64,000 bases of DNA. Origin: an uncultured Crocinitomix sp. Lineage in GTDB: Bacteria; Bacteroidota; Bacteroidia; Flavobacteriales_D; Crocinitomicaceae. The notes beneath the pieces were generated by a model. The model searched no databases. It saw only the letters and a program-made list of their open reading frames with translations, and had not been told where the DNA came from. Numbering within the stretch: the stretch's first letter is position 1; every line of letters begins with the position of its first letter. Positions 19,895 through 27,988 of this stretch are shown piece after piece. A program made the translations under genes and the position numbers. The stretch is from contig CAJQHR010000001.1 of assembly GCA_905478225.1 (NCBI GenBank), forward strand, positions 1 to 64,000. Direction: 5' to 3'.

Positions 19895-19900
19895 GCGCCC

Positions 19901-20016
19901 CGTCGCTTCGCAGGATTTGTAATCCTGGAAGAAAAACGCCTTGTAAACCCCATACCAAAATCTATCGCCACCGGTGCTTTGCAGGATTTGCAATTCTGCG
20001 ATCCCTCAACAATTGC
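19901..20016. repeat. Palindromic intergenic repeat, family B, copies 2 and 3
   Basis: CAGGATTTGTAATCCTG (19911-19927) and GCAGGATTTGCAATTCTGC (19981-19999) are near-palindromes matching the core at 9618-9638. Copy 3 is followed by GATCCCTCAACAATTGC, resembling the tail after copy 1. They fill the gap between the CBS-domain protein and bactofilin genes. Confidence 0.6.
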
Positions 20017-20066
20017 ATCATTGAATCATTGTTCGTATCTTTACATCCACAATTAAAAAGAAAGAG

Positions 20067-20492
20067 ATGTTTAAAGGAGGTAATGGAAAAGATGATGTGT
20101 CAAATTCACCTGATAAATTAAATCGGTTAGTGGAAGGAACAATTATTAAAGGAGATATTAAAGCGGATAGCAACTTTCGAATTGATGGAAAGCTAAACGG
20201 CTCATTAGATACGCTAGGTAAATTGGTGATTGGACCAACAGGTCGGGTAGAAGGAGATGTTAAATGTTCGAACGCCGACATTGAAGGCGAAATGATTGGA
20301 AACATTATTGTAGACGGACTTTTAAATATAAAATCAACAGCTAAGATTCAAGGAAGCATCACTACCAATCAAATTGGAATGGAAGTAGGGTGTGAGTATA
20401 GTGGTGTATGTAATTACATTGAAAAGAACGAAGCGCCTTTAATTGAACAATCAAAAAAAATCGGCGAACCTGATTCAGAAGTTGTTTATTAG
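20067..20492 (+). CDS. Bactofilin (polymer-forming cytoskeletal protein)
   Basis: A 141-residue cytoplasmic protein with the bactofilin beta-helix: GTIIKGDIKADSNFRIDGKLNGSL, VIGPTGRVEGDVKCSNADIEGEMIGNIIVDGLLNIKSTAKIQGSI. The repeated spacing of Gly and Ile/Val about every six residues is typical. Bactofilins form filaments that help position cell-wall or motility proteins. It precedes the ATP synthase genes, separated by an intergenic repeat, as is common in flavobacteria. Confidence 0.92.
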   Translation: MFKGGNGKDDVSNSPDKLNRLVEGTIIKGDIKADSNFRIDGKLNGSLDTLGKLVIGPTGRVEGDVKCSNADIEGEMIGNIIVDGLLNIKSTAKIQGSITTNQIGMEVGCEYSGVCNYIEKNEAPLIEQSKKIGEPDSEVVY

Positions 20493-20505
20493 TTTAATTC
20501 AAGCC

Positions 20506-20564
20506 GAACGTCAGTTTGAGTGATTTTTTTACCGCGCAGCGGATTAAAAAATAGTATCGAGAAC
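20506..20564. repeat. Palindromic intergenic repeat, family A, copy 2
   Basis: Left arm GTCAGTTTGAGTGATTTTTT, centre ACCGCGCAGCGG, right arm AAAAAATAGTATCGAGAAC. The poly-T and poly-A stretches can pair around the centre. The repeat ends two bases before the GTG start of the AtpZ-like gene. Confidence 0.7.
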
Positions 20565-20566
20565 AA

Positions 20567-20782
20567 GTGAAAAAGTCTAACAAAAACCCTTACTTCATTT
20601 TTTCATCAATGGCCATTCAAATGGGACTAACCATTGGTGCGGGAGCTTATGGCGGAACATTGCTAGATGCCCACTACCAAAACGCAAAACCGATCTGGAC
20701 AATTATTCTTTCATTACTTGGTGTGGCAGTTTCTCTATATTTGTTGATTCGCGGTGCAAAAAGAATCAATGATGATGAGTAA
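20567..20782 (+). CDS. AtpZ/AtpI-family small membrane protein
   Basis: A 71-residue protein with two transmembrane helices (about 10-30 and 42-62). The motif MAIQMGLTIGAGAYGGTLLD is typical of the AtpZ/AtpI family, which is linked to assembly of the F-type ATP synthase c-ring or to magnesium supply. The start is GTG, placed right after a palindromic repeat; no in-frame ATG precedes it. It overlaps the next gene by 14 bp, the usual arrangement at the head of this operon. Confidence 0.85.
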   Translation: MKKSNKNPYFIFSSMAIQMGLTIGAGAYGGTLLDAHYQNAKPIWTIILSLLGVAVSLYLLIRGAKRINDDE

Positions 20783-21185
20783 AAACTTTTTAAGAAATGA
20801 ATTATTAAAAGTTGTGGCTTTTACAATTGTAGTAGCAGCTATTCATTATTTGTTATTGTGGAAATATTTACCTGCAAAATTCGCGGATGCAGCACCGTGG
20901 AGAATTTATGCATTTTTAGTTCCAGCAACAATACTTGGCGTGGTCTTTATTGTGAAGCGGTTTCAGAAGGACCATAAATCAGTTGCGAATAGCTTTATGC
21001 TCTTCACAATTCTTAAAATGATTGCAGCGTTAATTTTTCTTGGAATTATCATGTTTTACATAAAAGAGCCTGCTCGACCAATTGTTTATCAATTTTTCGC
21101 ACTTTTTTTTCCATTCTTATTCCTGGAAACACGCTTATTTGTGCGAATGTTGAGTTATTCTCCAAGCAAATTTGAAAAAAACTGA
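20769..21185 (+). CDS. Membrane protein of the ATP synthase operon, unknown function
   Basis: A 138-residue protein with about four transmembrane helices (residues 10-30, 40-62, 72-92, 100-120). It lies between the AtpZ-like gene and atpB, the position of atpI in other bacteria. Its size and helix number resemble AtpI, but I see no clear family motif. Three in-frame ATG codons (20769, 20772, 20775) all overlap the end of the previous gene, so translation is probably coupled; the exact start is uncertain. Confidence 0.7.
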   Translation: MMMSKNFLRNELLKVVAFTIVVAAIHYLLLWKYLPAKFADAAPWRIYAFLVPATILGVVFIVKRFQKDHKSVANSFMLFTILKMIAALIFLGIIMFYIKEPARPIVYQFFALFFPFLFLETRLFVRMLSYSPSKFEKN

Positions 21186-21225
21186 AAATTCAATTAAAAT
21201 AATTTCTCAGTTTCCTTTTAAGATG

Positions 21226-21233
21226 TATCTTTG
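21226..21233 (+). promoter_or_regulatory. Putative -7 box for atpB
   Basis: TATCTTTG matches TANNTTTG and lies 44 bp upstream of atpB, in the 92-bp gap after the previous gene. This suggests a separate promoter for the structural subunits. No good -33 TTG. Confidence 0.45.
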
Positions 21234-21277
21234 TCGCGGATTTTAATAGCACAGGTTCATTTGAATCAATTTTTGAC

Positions 21278-22357
21278 ATGAAAAATTACGTTAAAGCTTT
21301 ATTACTCGGTTTAGTTGTTATTACAGTAGGTTTCGCATACGCAAACGCTAGCAGTTCTGATGCTGGCACAGTAGCGGTAGACAAGGAGCCTTTTAATGCT
21401 GCAGGTCACGCAGTGCACCACGCTATGGATGCACATGAATTTCATTTTACAGATGGATTTGTAATTCCACTTCCAGTTATTCTTTGGACAGACAATGGTT
21501 TAGTAACCTTTATGTCTTCAGCGTTTCATCATACTGATGACGGGTCGCATGTGCACACCGCAGATGGAATGAACTTCGTTAAAGTACACGAAACTATTTA
21601 TCAACTAGATGCAGGTGCAACTGAAGCACACATGCACAACGGACATTTAGAAAATGGATCTAAAGTGTGGATGGATTTCTCATTGACAAAAAACGTAACA
21701 ACAATTTTCTTGATTGCAATCTTATTAGTATTCATATTCTTTAGGTCTGCAAAAAAATACAAAACAAATAAAGACAAAGCGCCAAGTGGAATTTCAGCTT
21801 GGGTAGAGCCTGTGATATTATTTGTAAGAGAAATTGCTCAGGATAATATTGAAGGAGATAAGCACAAGAAATTTGTACCGTTCCTTTTAACCGTATTCTT
21901 TTTTATCTTATTTGGTAACCTATTAGGACTTTTACCTTTCTTAGCTAATCCAAACGTTACAGGAAGTATCAGTATAACACTATTGCTAGCCTTGTTTACA
22001 TTTATTGTACAACTAGCAAATTCTAAAAAAGCATTCTGGATGCATATCATTGCGCCTCCAGGGGTACCTTGGCCACTATATGTAATTATAGTACCAGTTG
22101 AGATCGCAGGGATCTTTATTAAGCCAGCTTCATTGATGATTCGTTTATTTGCGAACATCACGGCGGGGCACATTATTGTAGTAGCATTAATTTCAATCAT
22201 CTTCGTAAATGAGAGTTTGGCTTGGGCAGGTTTATCTGTACCATTCACACTATTCATTTCGATTTTGGAAATTTTAGTTGCTTTCTTACAAGCGTATATC
22301 TTTACTATGCTTTCAGCATTGTATTTCGGTATGGCAGTGGAAGAAGCACACCATTAA
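21278..22357 (+). CDS. atpB: F-type ATP synthase subunit a
   Basis: Membrane subunit forming the proton half-channels of the Fo motor. The 359-residue protein has an N-terminal signal-like helix and a long histidine-rich extracytoplasmic part (AGHAVHHAMDAHEFHF, AFHHTDDGSHVHTADG, EAHMHNGH), typical of Bacteroidota versions. The conserved membrane core starts near residue 140. The essential arginine is R289 in SLMIRLFANITAGH. It heads the structural part of the operon, 41 bp before atpE. Confidence 0.96.
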   Translation: MKNYVKALLLGLVVITVGFAYANASSSDAGTVAVDKEPFNAAGHAVHHAMDAHEFHFTDGFVIPLPVILWTDNGLVTFMSSAFHHTDDGSHVHTADGMNFVKVHETIYQLDAGATEAHMHNGHLENGSKVWMDFSLTKNVTTIFLIAILLVFIFFRSAKKYKTNKDKAPSGISAWVEPVILFVREIAQDNIEGDKHKKFVPFLLTVFFFILFGNLLGLLPFLANPNVTGSISITLLLALFTFIVQLANSKKAFWMHIIAPPGVPWPLYVIIVPVEIAGIFIKPASLMIRLFANITAGHIIVVALISIIFVNESLAWAGLSVPFTLFISILEILVAFLQAYIFTMLSALYFGMAVEEAHH

Positions 22358-22395
22358 ATTGTAATTTTTTTAATTAATAATAAAGTAAAATCTAA

Positions 22396-22620
<225 letters not shown>

Positions 22621-22632
22621 CAAAAAATTAGA

Positions 22633-22659
22633 TGGATGTCAGGGATTGCCTGACATCCA
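22633..22659 (+). other. Stem-loop in the atpE-atpF gap
   Basis: Perfect 11-bp stem TGGATGTCAGG / CCTGACATCCA with a GATTG loop, 13 bp after the atpE stop. No T tract follows, so it is not a normal terminator. It could block 3' exonucleases and raise atpE mRNA levels relative to the other subunits. Confidence 0.75.
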
Positions 22660-22700
22660 CTATTTACGAATTGTTAATTGAAATTAAAAGAGAATAAGAA

Positions 22701-23195
22701 ATGGATTTAGTTACACCAGCAGTCGGACAATTATTTTGGGGAGGATTAGTATTTATCATCCTTTTGATATTGTTAACCAAGTTCGCTTGGAAACCGATTT
22801 TATCAGCCGTTAACGAGCGTGAAGAAAGTATCCAAGAATCTATGGATATGGCCATCAAAACGAAAGCGGAGATGGAAGCATTGCAAGCGCAAAACCAAGA
22901 TCTTTTAAAAGAAGCGCGTATTGATCGTGATAAAATGATTAAGGAAGCGTCTGAAACTTCTAAACGAATGATTGAAGAATCAAGAGAAGAAGGAAAAGCG
23001 CAACAACAAAAAATAGTTGCTGAAGCACAAAAAATCATTAATGCTGAGAAAGCAGCAGCGATTTCTGAATTGAAAACGCAAGTGGCTTCTTTATCTCTAG
23101 AGATTGCAGAAAAAGTAATTAAAGGAGAATTAGCTTCAGACGATAAACAAAAAGCGTTGGCAGAGCAGATCGCTAACGACATTAGCTTAAACTAA
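22701..23195 (+). CDS. atpF: F-type ATP synthase subunit b
   Basis: Peripheral stalk subunit linking Fo to F1. The 164-residue protein has one N-terminal membrane helix (LFWGGLVFIILLILLTKFAW) followed by a long charged coiled coil (about 40-140), including KTKAEMEALQAQNQDLLKEA. Starts 80 bp after atpE and ends 4 bp before atpH. Confidence 0.95.
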   Translation: MDLVTPAVGQLFWGGLVFIILLILLTKFAWKPILSAVNEREESIQESMDMAIKTKAEMEALQAQNQDLLKEARIDRDKMIKEASETSKRMIEESREEGKAQQQKIVAEAQKIINAEKAAAISELKTQVASLSLEIAEKVIKGELASDDKQKALAEQIANDISLN

Positions 23196-23199
23196 AAAG

Positions 23200-23733
23200 A
23201 TGAGCGTAACAAGAGTAGCACATAGATATGCGCAAGCATTATTGGACCTTTCAACAGAGCAAAACGTTGTAGACAAGGTAAATGCTGATATGTTGCAATT
23301 GTCTAATATTTGCAAAGCACAAGACTTTGCAAATTTATTAAGTAGCCCTATTGTTGATTCAAAAAAGAAAAGCGAAATTTTCAATGCAATTTTTGGATCG
23401 AAAATGGAAAAAATGTCACTGGATTTAATGGACTTAGTGCTTAAAAATTCTCGTGAGGCTATTTTACCGCAAATAACAAATGGATTTGTTAGTCTTTACA
23501 AAAAGAAAAACAACATTTTGGATGTAACAGTAATTTCAGCAACTACGTTAGACAAAGCAACAAAAGATTTAATCATCTCTAAAATCAAAGCAAGCTTTGA
23601 CGCAACAATTGAGTTGATTGAAAAAGTAGATGCATCATTGATAGGTGGATTTATTGTAAGAATAGATGACAAACAAATAGACGCGTCTATTGCAAGTCAA
23701 TTATCAAATTTAAAAAATATTTTATTAAACTAA
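23200..23733 (+). CDS. atpH: F-type ATP synthase subunit delta
   Basis: Connects the peripheral stalk to the top of F1 (OSCP-like). The 177-residue protein has the N-terminal helical domain (VAHRYAQALLDLSTEQ) and the C-terminal signature (IEKVDASLIGGFIVRIDDKQIDASI). It lies 4 bp after atpF and 1 bp before an unknown gene, indicating one transcript. Confidence 0.95.
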   Translation: MSVTRVAHRYAQALLDLSTEQNVVDKVNADMLQLSNICKAQDFANLLSSPIVDSKKKSEIFNAIFGSKMEKMSLDLMDLVLKNSREAILPQITNGFVSLYKKKNNILDVTVISATTLDKATKDLIISKIKASFDATIELIEKVDASLIGGFIVRIDDKQIDASIASQLSNLKNILLN

Positions 23734-23734
23734 G

Positions 23735-24187
23735 ATGAAGAACTTGGTGATCATACTAGCTTTATTATTTGTTGTTCCAGTAATGAGTCAAGACAAGATT
23801 AAAGTAAGATTTAAAATTTCCAAGGAACGTGTATTTGTTAATAAAGTAGAGTGGGCTAAGTTAGAACCTGCTGCAGGTAAATTTTTCCTAAGTACCCTAG
23901 CAGGTGAGGAATTTGTTTCCATTCATAAATTCGAATACGGTACTGGAGGATATGATGTAAATACGGGAAAAGAAATTACGCATAGCTATTGCGAAATTAA
24001 GTTCATTGGAACTGATATTCCAGAATTTGAAGTAGACGCCAATTATAATGAAGCTAATAGCCTGATGTATAAAATGAGTGTTTTGGCTGACGATACGTTT
24101 GTTCAGGAGAATGCAATAAAGTTTAAAGAGAAGTACAAGGAAGAAGTGTCGGAAAAACACTTTTTAACAAAATCAAAAATTACATAA
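23735..24187 (+). CDS. Unrecognised exported protein inside the ATP synthase operon
   Basis: I do not recognise this 150-residue protein. It has a clear signal peptide (MKNLVIILALLFVVPVMSQ, probable cleavage after SQ) and a compact mature part with alternating beta-like segments (KIKVRFKISKERVFVNKVEW, FLSTLAGEEFVSI, CEIKFIGTDIPEFEV). A charged helix (IKFKEKYKEEVSEKHF) closes it. There is one Cys and no lipobox, so it is probably a soluble periplasmic protein. It starts 1 bp after the atpH stop and ends 71 bp before atpA, so it must be made from the same transcript. F1 subunits are cytoplasmic, so the setting is unusual. It could be a cargo gene or an accessory factor. Confidence 0.75.
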   Translation: MKNLVIILALLFVVPVMSQDKIKVRFKISKERVFVNKVEWAKLEPAAGKFFLSTLAGEEFVSIHKFEYGTGGYDVNTGKEITHSYCEIKFIGTDIPEFEVDANYNEANSLMYKMSVLADDTFVQENAIKFKEKYKEEVSEKHFLTKSKIT

Positions 24188-24258
24188 TTTAAAATTAAAT
24201 GTTAGACTACAGAGCAAAGAAAAAGAGCTTTAATCTGACATCTTAAATCTAGAATAAA

Positions 24259-25833
24259 ATGGCAGATGTAAAACCAGCAGAAGTTTCCGCAATCTTAAGA
24301 GAGCAACTCTCAGGATTTAAATCGGAAGCAGAATTAGAAGAAGTTGGAACCGTCCTTCAAGTAGGAGATGGTATTGCTCGTATTTATGGATTATCTAGCG
24401 TTCAATACGGTGAGATGATCGAATTCAAATCAGGATTAAGAGCGATCGTTCTTAACCTTGAAGAGGATAACGTAGGAGCTGTATTATTAGGAAAAGGGAA
24501 TGACATTAAAGAAGGCGATACAGTTAAACGTTTACGTTTAATTGCTTCTATTCAAGTAGGAGAAGGTATCGTTGGACGTGTTGTTGATACAATGGGAATT
24601 CCAATTGATGGAAAAGGGCCGATTGAAGGTGAGACATTTGAAATGCCATTGGAAAGAAAAGCACCAGGAGTTATCTTCCGTGAGCCAGTAACTGAACCAC
24701 TCCAAACAGGGATTAAAGCAATTGATGCTATGATTCCAGTAGGAAGAGGACAACGTGAGTTGGTAATTGGAGATAGACAGACCGGTAAAACTACAGTTTG
24801 TATTGATACGATTATCAATCAAAAAGAGTTTTACGATAAAGGTGAACCAGTATACTGTATCTATGTTGCAATTGGACAAAAAGCTTCAACTGTTGCAGGA
24901 TTAGTAGCTAAGTTAGAAGCTGCAGGCGCAATGGCTTATACAACTATTGTTGCTGCAAACGCATCTGATGCCGCTCCATTACAGTTTTACGCGCCATTCG
25001 CAGGTGCTGCAGTTGGTGAGTATTTTAGAGATACTGGTAGACCAGCATTAATTGTATTTGATGATTTATCAAAACAAGCAGTTGCTTACCGTGAGGTTTC
25101 TTTGTTATTAAGAAGACCACCGGGACGTGAGGCTTACCCTGGAGATGTATTCTATTTGCACTCGAGATTATTAGAGAGAGCTGCAAAAGTGATCAATGAT
25201 GATACAATTGCTGCTTCTATGAATGATGTTCCTGCTTCTTTAGTTGGGAAAATCAAAGGTGGTGGTTCATTAACGGCATTGCCAATTATTGAAACACAAG
25301 CGGGTGATGTATCTGCATATATCCCTACCAACGTAATTTCAATTACAGACGGTCAAATCTTCTTGGAGTCTAACTTGTTTAATGCAGGTGTTCGTCCAGC
25401 GATTAACGTAGGTATTTCTGTATCTCGTGTTGGAGGGAACGCACAGATTAAATCAATGAAAAAAGTATCTGGTACTTTGAAACTAGATCAAGCACAATAT
25501 AGAGAGTTAGAGGCATTTGCTAAATTCGGTTCGGATTTGGATGCTGCTACTAAATCTGTATTGGATAAAGGAGCAAGAAACGTTGAGATTTTGAAACAAA
25601 ACGAGGGAGATCCATTCCCAGTTGAGAATCAAATTGCAATCATTTATGCTGGTACTAAGGGATTATTAGGTAATGTGCCTATTGATCAAGTTAAAGCATT
25701 CGAAAAGGAATTCATTAACTATATGAATGCAAACCATAAAGATGTAATGAACACATTAGCATCAGGTAAATATGGTGATGATTCAACGTCAGTATTAGAA
25801 AAAGTAGCTTTAGAACTAGCTTCTAAATATTAA
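24259..25833 (+). CDS. atpA: F-type ATP synthase subunit alpha
   Basis: Non-catalytic nucleotide-binding subunit of F1. The 524-residue protein shows the Walker A loop GDRQTGKTT at residues 171-179, [48 protein letters not shown] (quoted in parts: [26 protein letters not shown]) and the arginine finger region ISVSRVGG. Length and order are normal. Confidence 0.97.
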
Positions 25834-25857
25834 AAAATAGAACAAAGACAATTACAC

Positions 25858-25890
25858 CTCCGTACATTGAGGCACTCGAAGTGCACGGAG
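25858..25890 (+). other. Stem-loop in the atpA-atpG gap
   Basis: CTCCGT (25858-25863) pairs with ACGGAG (25885-25890), and inside it GCAC (25872-25875) pairs with GTGC (25881-25884) around TCGAA. The segment CATTGAGGCACTCGAA resembles CATTGAGGCTCTCGAA in the repeat near 46600, so it may be a remnant of repeat family A. Confidence 0.5.
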
Positions 25891-25913
25891 TTTAGCTTTA
25901 ATCTAAAAATAGC

Positions 25914-26792
25914 ATGGCTAACTTAAAAGAAATTAGAAATAGGATTACTTCAGTATCTTCAACTATGCAGATTACTTCTGCTATGAAGATGGTTTCTGCT
26001 GCTAAGTTAAAACGAGCGCAGGATGCCGTAACGAAGATGATGCCGTATTCTCAAAAATTGCAAGAAATGTTATCTAGCATGTCATCTGCTTTAGATGGTG
26101 CTGATAATGTTTATGCATCTGATCGTGAGGTTAAAAATGTGGTATTGGTTCCAATTACATCAAACAGAGGTTTGTGTGGTGGTTTCAATAACTACATTGT
26201 GAAAGAAACGTTACGATTGGCGAGTAATGAATACAAAGATCAAAATGTTTCTATTGTTAGTATTGGTAAAAAGGCGACAGATGCTTTTAAGAAAACACCT
26301 ATGTTTGCTTCTGCTGATTTTTTACCGACTGATTTAGATGAAATCTGGAATGAATTAACTTATGCAAATGCAACTCCAATAGCTGAAAAGTTAATGGCTG
26401 CGTATGCTAATAAGGATATTGATAAGGTTGTAATTATTTATAATCACTCTAAAAACGTGGCAACTCAAATTGTTCAGGCAAGTCAATTATTACCTGTTGT
26501 TCAAGATGAGACTGAAGAAGCAAAATCGGAATTAGATTATATCTTTGAGCCTTCTAAAGAAGAGATTGTTGCTGAATTATTACCGAAGACCTTGAAGACA
26601 CAATTGTATAGCATTCTTTTAGAATCTTATGCTGGTGAACACGGTGCTCGTATGACAGCAATGCATAAAGCAACTGATAATGCTTCAGAATTGAATAAAG
26701 CGCTTAAATTGGAATACAATAAAGCACGTCAAGCAGCTATTACGAACGAAATTTTAGAGATTGTTGGTGGTGCTGAAGCATTGAACGGATAA
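25914..26792 (+). CDS. atpG: F-type ATP synthase subunit gamma
   Basis: Central rotor shaft of F1. The 292-residue protein has the conserved N-terminal helix (LKEIRNRITSVSSTMQITSAMKMVSAAKLKRA), TSNRGLCGGFN and the C-terminal helix (AMHKATDNASELNKALKLEYNKARQAAITNEI; quoted in part). It is the last gene of the operon here and ends at a strong terminator. atpD and atpC are not in the window, as in many flavobacteria where they sit elsewhere. Confidence 0.96.
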   Translation: MANLKEIRNRITSVSSTMQITSAMKMVSAAKLKRAQDAVTKMMPYSQKLQEMLSSMSSALDGADNVYASDREVKNVVLVPITSNRGLCGGFNNYIVKETLRLASNEYKDQNVSIVSIGKKATDAFKKTPMFASADFLPTDLDEIWNELTYANATPIAEKLMAAYANKDIDKVVIIYNHSKNVATQIVQASQLLPVVQDETEEAKSELDYIFEPSKEEIVAELLPKTLKTQLYSILLESYAGEHGARMTAMHKATDNASELNKALKLEYNKARQAAITNEILEIVGGAEALNG

Positions 26793-26812
26793 GACAAATC
26801 AAAATTATAATT

Positions 26813-26855
26813 AAAATCCCGTTTGAACATTTCAATGTTTGGCCGGGATTTTTTT
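26813..26855 (+). terminator. Rho-independent terminator of the ATP synthase operon
   Basis: AAAATCCCG (26813-26821) pairs with CGGGATTTT (26844-26852), and an inner AACATT/AATGTT stem strengthens it. A T run to 26855 follows. Confidence 0.9.
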
Positions 26856-27057
26856 ATGCATTATCTGGTATACTTTCAGATCATTTTTTCGAAAACTATT
26901 CAATGGTATTTTCTGGAATGCAGCTAAAAGAGAAGCAAGAAACGTTGGATTAGCTTAAATTGATGTGTACAATAGTGTAACTCGTCGAATTTCACTAAAA
27001 TCGTGTAACTTCAAACTTTAAATTGGCGTATCTTAATAATACACGAAAACCAACCGC

Positions 27058-27407
27058 ATGACTTTAGGAGAGAGAATTCAACAATTACGCAAAGAAAAGC
27101 GTTTGACGCAAGCCGCGTTGGCATCAAACATTGGTGTTTCTGTGGCGCAATTAACACGTTATGAAACACAAGGTGTATAGCCAAATGCCGACGCGTTAAA
27201 ACGCATGGCAATGGTCTTTGGTATTACAATTGATTTTTTAGTCAACGGAACTACGGTTCAAAAAGCTGAAAATGCGATTACGGACTCAAAATTAATCGGC
27301 CTGTTCAAACAAATTGAAAACTTGGAAACAGAAGATAGACAAGTCGTGGCAAAACTAATTGAGGCCTTCGCAATTAAAAAAAAATGGAAAAGATGCTCAA
27401 GAACTAA
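27058..27407 (+). pseudogene. XRE-family helix-turn-helix regulator, broken by a stop and a frameshift
   Basis: The frame from ATG 27058 reads MTLGERIQQLRKEKRLTQ, ALASNIGVSVAQLTRYETQGV and then TAG (27178-27180). In the same frame it continues PNADALKRMAMVFGITIDFL, and on to LETEDRQVVAKLIEAFAIKK. The helix-turn-helix is the XRE/Cro type, and the stop replaces one codon between its recognition helix and the following helix (CAG to TAG would explain it). Near the end the frame runs past a run of nine A (27376-27384); one extra A would give KKKMEKMLKN and a TAA at 27405-27407. Two independent lesions point to a decaying gene, unless both are sequencing errors. Confidence 0.75.
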
Positions 27408-27988
27408 GCATGACCCTTCATCATCTTCTTAACATATTTACCGATAATATCGAACTCTAGGTTCACTTTTGATCCTACTTCTAAAGTATGGAAATTCGTA
27501 TGTTCAACTGTATAAGGTATAATATGAACGGAGAATAATCGATCTTCGGATTGGACAACTGTCAAGCTTACTCCATTTACTGTGATTGATCCTTTAGAGA
27601 CAGTGACATCATCATAGTCATATTCGAAAACGTACTCTGTACTTCCATCCATTTCAATTATTTCAACGCAGGTTCCAACGGTATCAACATGTCCTTGTAC
27701 TATGTGTCCATCTAACCTTGAGCCTACTTTTGTGCAGCGTTCAAGGTTTACAACGTTTCCTGTTTGAAGTAATCCTAAATTTGTTCGTACTAAGGTTTCG
27801 TCAATAGCGGTTAATGTGTAGTTTGCTCCGTCAATTGCAACAACGGTTAAGCAGGTACCATTGTGTGCAACACTTTGGTCAATTTTTAATTCATTCGTAA
27901 ATCCGCATGAAAAGGTGAAGTGAACGTTTGTCCCTTCTTTTTCAATTTTTTCAACGCGTGCTAATGTCTCAATGATTCCTGTAAACAT
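27404..27988 (-). CDS. ribE: Riboflavin synthase, alpha chain
   Basis: Makes riboflavin from two molecules of 6,7-dimethyl-8-ribityllumazine. The 194-residue protein has two lumazine-binding repeats: MFTGIIETLARVEKIEKEG ... LKIDQSVAHNGTCLTVV, and RLDGHIVQGHVDTVGT ... SKGSITVNGVSLTVV. The start at 27988 (MFTGIIE) is the standard N-terminus; the frame extends eight codons upstream but these are not family-like. It is convergent with the broken XRE gene, and their stop codons overlap. No other rib gene lies nearby. Confidence 0.95.
   Translation of the reverse strand: MFTGIIETLARVEKIEKEGTNVHFTFSCGFTNELKIDQSVAHNGTCLTVVAIDGANYTLTAIDETLVRTNLGLLQTGNVVNLERCTKVGSRLDGHIVQGHVDTVGTCVEIIEMDGSTEYVFEYDYDDVTVSKGSITVNGVSLTVVQSEDRLFSVHIIPYTVEHTNFHTLEVGSKVNLEFDIIGKYVKKMMKGHA

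Follow-up and report, generated by a model that had tools for sequence, protein, structure and literature searches.

A putatively exported, apparently optional protein encoded between atpH and atpA in Crocinitomix and a second bacterial family

Bacterial ATP synthase operons are strongly conserved. Three proteins associated with them, AtpI, AtpZ and Atp1/CGL160, are membrane proteins, and the atp operon of Rhodopseudomonas blastica holds an unassigned gene, URF6, between the genes for its gamma and beta subunits. The stretch of DNA analysed here (the window) comprises 64,000 nucleotides from an uncultured Crocinitomix sp., and upstream of its atpB are two small open reading frames that we take to be AtpI-like. 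Our subject is another gene of the same operon. Between atpH (delta subunit; 23200..23733, + strand) and atpA (alpha subunit; 24259..25833, + strand) lies a gene for a putatively exported protein of 150 amino acids (23735..24187, + strand, stop included), recognized from its open reading frame, its orthologues and its homologues in the same slot of a second family. The frame is intact, running for 150 codons from an ATG at 23735 to a stop at 24185-24187. Its start lies where the original prediction had placed it, 1 nt past the atpH stop (23731-23733), and 71 bases separate its end from atpA.

The N-terminus of the product, MKNLVIILALLFVVPVMSQDK, reads by inspection as a signal peptide, in agreement with what had been proposed; it spans residues 1-18 (23735..23788, + strand) and is presumed to be cut before Q19. 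The mature slot proteins are hydrophilic (GRAVY -0.45 to -0.79, n=6), with no additional hydrophobic stretch visible by eye. The last 22 conserved codons (24107..24172, + strand), ending in SEKHFLTK, are the best-conserved stretch across both families, as judged by alignment and codon comparison. The two sister orthologues, both of which are also present in Crocinitomix records CAKZON010000070.1 and WTCE01000066.1, terminate at this FLTK; the window copy alone runs on beyond their stop with a SKIT extension of four codons plus its own stop (24173..24187, + strand). Codon usage in the gene (0.620) is close to the median of the 35 other open reading frames in the window (0.618) and slightly under that of the atp genes (0.651-0.758), which fits a gene that is not tuned like a core subunit.

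The original prediction could name no family for this protein, and we fared no better. Searched against Pfam with E allowed as high as 10, the window protein matched no family. NCBIfam gave nothing above cut-off among five slot proteins (its one match scored 12.7 against a required 620 bits). The PDB held no match for the window protein, and a profile of six slot proteins reached E values there of at least 0.6. Two AlphaFold2 runs of three sequences each returned mean pLDDT values of 47.2 and 47.7, too low for fold comparison; both models hint at strands, a helix between strands and two C-terminal helices. Nor did the literature help: among the matches listed, as far as the accessible portions of those papers go, there is no report of the gene.

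It had been argued that the gene must be translated from the ATP synthase transcript, which we would likewise infer from its placement. Promoter-like sites are not enriched in 19900-27500 (25, against a shuffle mean of 26.5), and the most likely route would be reinitiation on the atp mRNA after atpH. Bacteroidetes rely little on Shine-Dalgarno sites, reinitiation included (PMC6728339).

The same operon has a small structural element of its own. Between atpE and atpF is a hairpin (22633-22659, + strand) of 11 bp with the loop GATTG. This loop, with a paired stem, also occurs in six other Crocinitomix genomes and in one labelled G027, several of them with a different stem sequence, and among eight aligned sequences 7 of the 11 pairs carry two-sided changes with pairing kept. 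In G007, a Crocinitomix genome, the loop is present and the stem is interrupted; G016, G139 and six operons of the second family (f13) have no such hairpin between atpE and atpF. Rfam at gathering scores matched nothing in 20500-27000.

How widely is the slot filled? Our Crocinitomix sample comprised nine genomes, eight with atpH; the ninth (G008, 67% complete) gave no atpH match and is not counted. The gene is carried by three of the eight: the window, G004 (74-75% identity to the window protein) and G001 (60%). The other five (G006, G002, G007, G003 and G005) have an uninterrupted junction, with 50-121 nt between atpH and atpA. For the family at large, we took those of 240 genomes in which both atpH and atpA appeared among the matches listed and lay on one contig, leaving out genomes with only one of the two among those matches or with the pair on two contigs. 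That gave 112 genomes. Measured between aligned ends rather than exact stop and start codons, the gap exceeds 140 nt in 3 of the 112, all of them the Crocinitomix carriers, so the original prediction was right that an insertion at this point is rare.

G006 is one of the genomes without the gene. A tree built from atpF, atpH and atpA, with the divergent atpA end of this genome included, groups the carriers and G006 together (support 100 with nucleotides, 51 with proteins), and in it G006 is the sister of the carrier G004 (100 and 97, respectively). The two are 96-99% identical in atpH and the first 1200 bases of atpA, and the genes for AtpB, AtpE, AtpF and AtpH, at 89-98% DNA identity, show no gross change. 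Past about base 1200 of atpA, identity drops to 57-72% through atpG (locus L051), a change that reflects either recombination or a mis-joined assembly. Within Crocinitomix, the simplest history is one gain and one loss in G006; a secondary loss is what the tree favours, the scar in the G006 gap having been read by eye only. The gap sequence had raised the idea that the gap came from a G002-like lineage, which was dropped, since both flanks of the slot in G006 are like those of G004.

The gene is not confined to one genus, although its distribution in the first family at first implied that it was. Searching an order sample of 399 genomes, with E up to 1e-5, gave six matches: the window, G004 and G001, together with G276, G272 and G280 from the second family (genus g37), the latter at E values of 2e-34 to 8e-28. 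In these three, the start of the gene follows atpH by 5-6 nt, and 9 nt separate its end from atpA. All six members, from two families, sit between atpH and atpA, and all six frames are open. The atp-linked position is therefore found in more than one lineage, Crocinitomix and g37, with three genomes in each, and its recurrence in a second family gives the placement more meaning than a single-genome oddity would have. Class samples of 395 and 187 genomes, overlapping the earlier ones, contained no further in-slot member, and a distant relative that they did contain (in G625) lies next to genes other than atp; a further order sample (8 of 213) also overlaps the earlier ones.

Presence in the second family is patchy too. 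A wider profile matches four of six f13 genomes. The fourth of these matches, in G267, is a longer and distant relative whose locus contains no atp gene; the atpH-atpA junction of G267, in which atpH was read in part, appears uninterrupted at about 18 nt. G051 and G057 are uninterrupted, with 28 nt between atpH and atpA when the end of atpH is extrapolated from the alignment. Two of the six f13 genomes are then without the slot gene, or three if the partly read G267 is counted. G276, G272, G280 and G051 belong to one genus. By eye, the N-terminal region of AtpB in G276 and G272 resembles that of G057, and in G280 it resembles that of G051 and G267 (L074-L079). Such a mix across one genus looks like another sign that atp operons are mosaic.

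The slot proteins have relations elsewhere. A plain protein search finds a single copy in the genome of the window, and a profile search adds one distant relative at another locus. Built from the three orthologues and one distant relative, the profile matches 27 of the 240 family genomes at E <= 1e-3, carriers included. Beyond the slot members, these are weak and divergent matches, the profile E going down to 2e-16 (L020 excepted, which is part of the query). Aligning the six slot proteins with 20 relatives reveals similarity over most of the length, and the wider family (L020-L039, L044, L045) shares with the slot proteins a signal-peptide-like start, a similar length and an alignable core in which L55, F90 and E99 are nearly invariant. 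Judged by eye, it would have an N-terminal signal peptide and no lipobox cysteine. What sets the slot proteins apart is a GTG motif and the ending SE[KR][RH]FLTK; 15 of the 20 others, in a count made by eye, have an IIINN-like tail instead. In a tree of the 26 sequences, from which L033 (its protein repeats L031), L036, L040, L041, L042 and L043 were omitted because they were duplicates, longer, split or weak, the slot proteins make up a single clade with support 100, apart from the 20 relatives.

None of those 20, and none of the profile matches in the family other than the slot genes of the three carriers, has an atp gene around it (about 1.5 kb each side, less at contig ends), and the neighbourhoods of 11 relatives, which we inspected, place the more distant homologues at scattered loci. 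The association of the six slot proteins, and none of the 20 relatives, with the slot gives a Fisher p of 4e-6, which serves only as a guide because the sequences share ancestry and some of them were found with the help of slot members. Two of the distant relatives, L044 (from the window's own genome) and L026 (from G006), adjoin a similar neighbouring gene, presumably for an HflX-like GTPase judging from its sequence. The original prediction wondered whether homologues keep the atpH-atpA position, and held scattered homologues, or close relatives with an uninterrupted junction, against a special tie to the operon. The outcome is divided. The nearest homologues do keep the position, in two families; the more distant ones are scattered, and five of the eight Crocinitomix junctions are uninterrupted. 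As the sequences stand, the best explanation is that the slot gene would be an optional member of a small (about 150 amino acids) exported-protein family.

Our leaning, held with modest confidence, is that the slot houses an optional, exchangeable envelope protein, non-essential and under selection, in a fixed place within the atp operon. An exported-protein family would have settled right after the atpH stop, there to be translated along with its neighbours. Its product would leave the cytoplasm by the signal peptide that we read by eye and, about 130 residues long and soluble, would work in the cell envelope. Selection keeps the gene where it is present, and the ATP synthase would do without it; that the gene is dispensable for the enzyme is suggested by close relatives that lose or lack it while the atp genes compared show no gross change. 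Lineages would probably swap copies by homologous recombination, with the conserved atp flanks as the regions of homology, and this would account for the same slot in both families as well. We find it somewhat more likely that the protein acts independently of the enzyme and merely borrows the expression of the operon than that it takes a direct part in ATP synthase, although such a part is possible.

That direct role deserves a hearing. Its fullest form is a dedicated, non-essential accessory, exported to the periplasmic face of Fo, where it would bind subunit a, the c-ring or subunit b and tune assembly, stability or proton access; the gene would be retained in the operon because its protein serves the ATP synthase. 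We hold this tentatively, as a minority view. Co-encoded ATP synthase assembly factors exist, purifying selection (below) fits such a role, and the contrast between the six members of the subfamily, all in one slot, and 20 aligned relatives, all lacking atp neighbours within about 1.5 kb or less, speaks for it; a real functional tie would likewise produce one position shared by two families. Against it stand the junctions without the gene: five of eight in Crocinitomix, 109 of 112 in the family (by distance) and two or three of six in f13. G006, too, does without the gene and yet shows no gross change in AtpB, AtpE, AtpF or AtpH relative to G004. An assembly factor, as the original prediction suggested, may still be entertained if it is non-essential; an essential one is at odds with the uninterrupted junctions of Crocinitomix. 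For a core subunit there is neither a match to any subunit family model nor a constant presence at the junction. A role tied to the histidine-rich side of AtpB, also suggested, found no support. The histidine-rich N-terminal region was compared in 14 operons, six from carriers and eight from genomes that lack the gene, and is there in every one; histidine counts in the first 150 residues overlap (11-13 in the carriers, 11-19 in the other eight), so we rejected an AtpB partner as a specific idea.

A separate question is how the gene came to be in both families, and here the comparison of three g37 genomes is telling. The slot proteins of G276 and G280 are 41% identical, their AtpH proteins 79%, and the distance between their partial AtpA sequences is 0.015. 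Between G276 and G272 the order is reversed (91% for the slot protein, 83% for AtpH), and the gene is therefore not simply fast-evolving. Across the two families, slot-protein identity is 38-47%, a range that takes in the 41% of the G276-G280 pair and is near that of AtpH (about 43%). The gene tree puts G276 and G272 with Crocinitomix and not with G280 (support 97). Within the G276-G280 pair, the last 22 codons are conserved at 86% of residues and 83% of bases, the other segments at 18-44%, and so sharp a change at the 3' end is as expected for a swapped allele. Replacement of alleles in g37 through flanking atp homology is, on these sequence comparisons, probable. The conserved 3' end could alternatively be due to nearness to the atpA translation start, or to constraint on the C-terminus of the protein. 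In the last 66 bases of the G276-G272 pair (L059/L060), 21 of 22 identical residues use the same codon, against 64 of 111 elsewhere in the gene (Fisher p 0.0004); added constraint close to where atpA begins could have kept these codons alike, as could recombination.

The rival history, compatible with either function, is that the slot gene was ancestral to both families and lost many times, with fast evolution behind the large g37 divergence. We hold it, too, as a minority view. Vertical descent in g37 is not rejected by an AU test (p 0.096; 0.079 without the signal peptide), and for that reason the case for exchange rests on the distances and the sharp 3' change; the cross-family identity of the gene, so near that of AtpH, also suits descent. 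Vertical descent would need many losses, however, given 6 matching genomes in 399 of the order, and the leap in the ratio of gene to AtpH distance, from about 0.5 (G276-G272) to about 6.7 (G276-G280), counts against it. A blend of the two themes, in which the slot is exchangeable and its divergent alleles, dropped in some lineages, act in others on the periplasmic side to modulate the enzyme, strikes us as unlikely.

Among the three Crocinitomix copies dN/dS is 0.05-0.22 (NG86) or 0.10-0.26 (YN00, two of three pairs), and for G276-G272 it is 0.03 (0.039/1.269), values that are rough because synonymous sites are near saturation. Purifying selection in the orthologues and in the second-family homologues means that the gene is real, and the notion that it is not a gene was ruled out. 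Least credible of all is a pure passenger, a functionless, neutral and short-lived insertion. Patchy presence and scattered relatives would suit it, but in both families dN/dS lies well under 1, which, with open frames in six copies, makes it very improbable. Mobile-element cargo found no support: tblastn against plasmid and phage collections gave no match to the gene, and no match in viral contigs was confirmed. When atpA was searched against the viral contigs, one of them matched.

Sister species that differ in whether this slot is occupied by a selected, putatively exported protein, as seen across two families, offer a natural experiment on whether ATP synthase in these bacteria has optional envelope partners, and on the gain and loss of genes in essential operons. 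Set beside the known systems, the slot gene is like those for AtpI, AtpZ and Atp1/CGL160 in that it lies in or beside the atp operon and does not encode a core subunit. Unlike those membrane proteins, its product looks as though it would be soluble after export. It is like URF6 in position: there too an unassigned gene is inserted between two atp genes, although the genes that flank it are not the ones that flank the slot.
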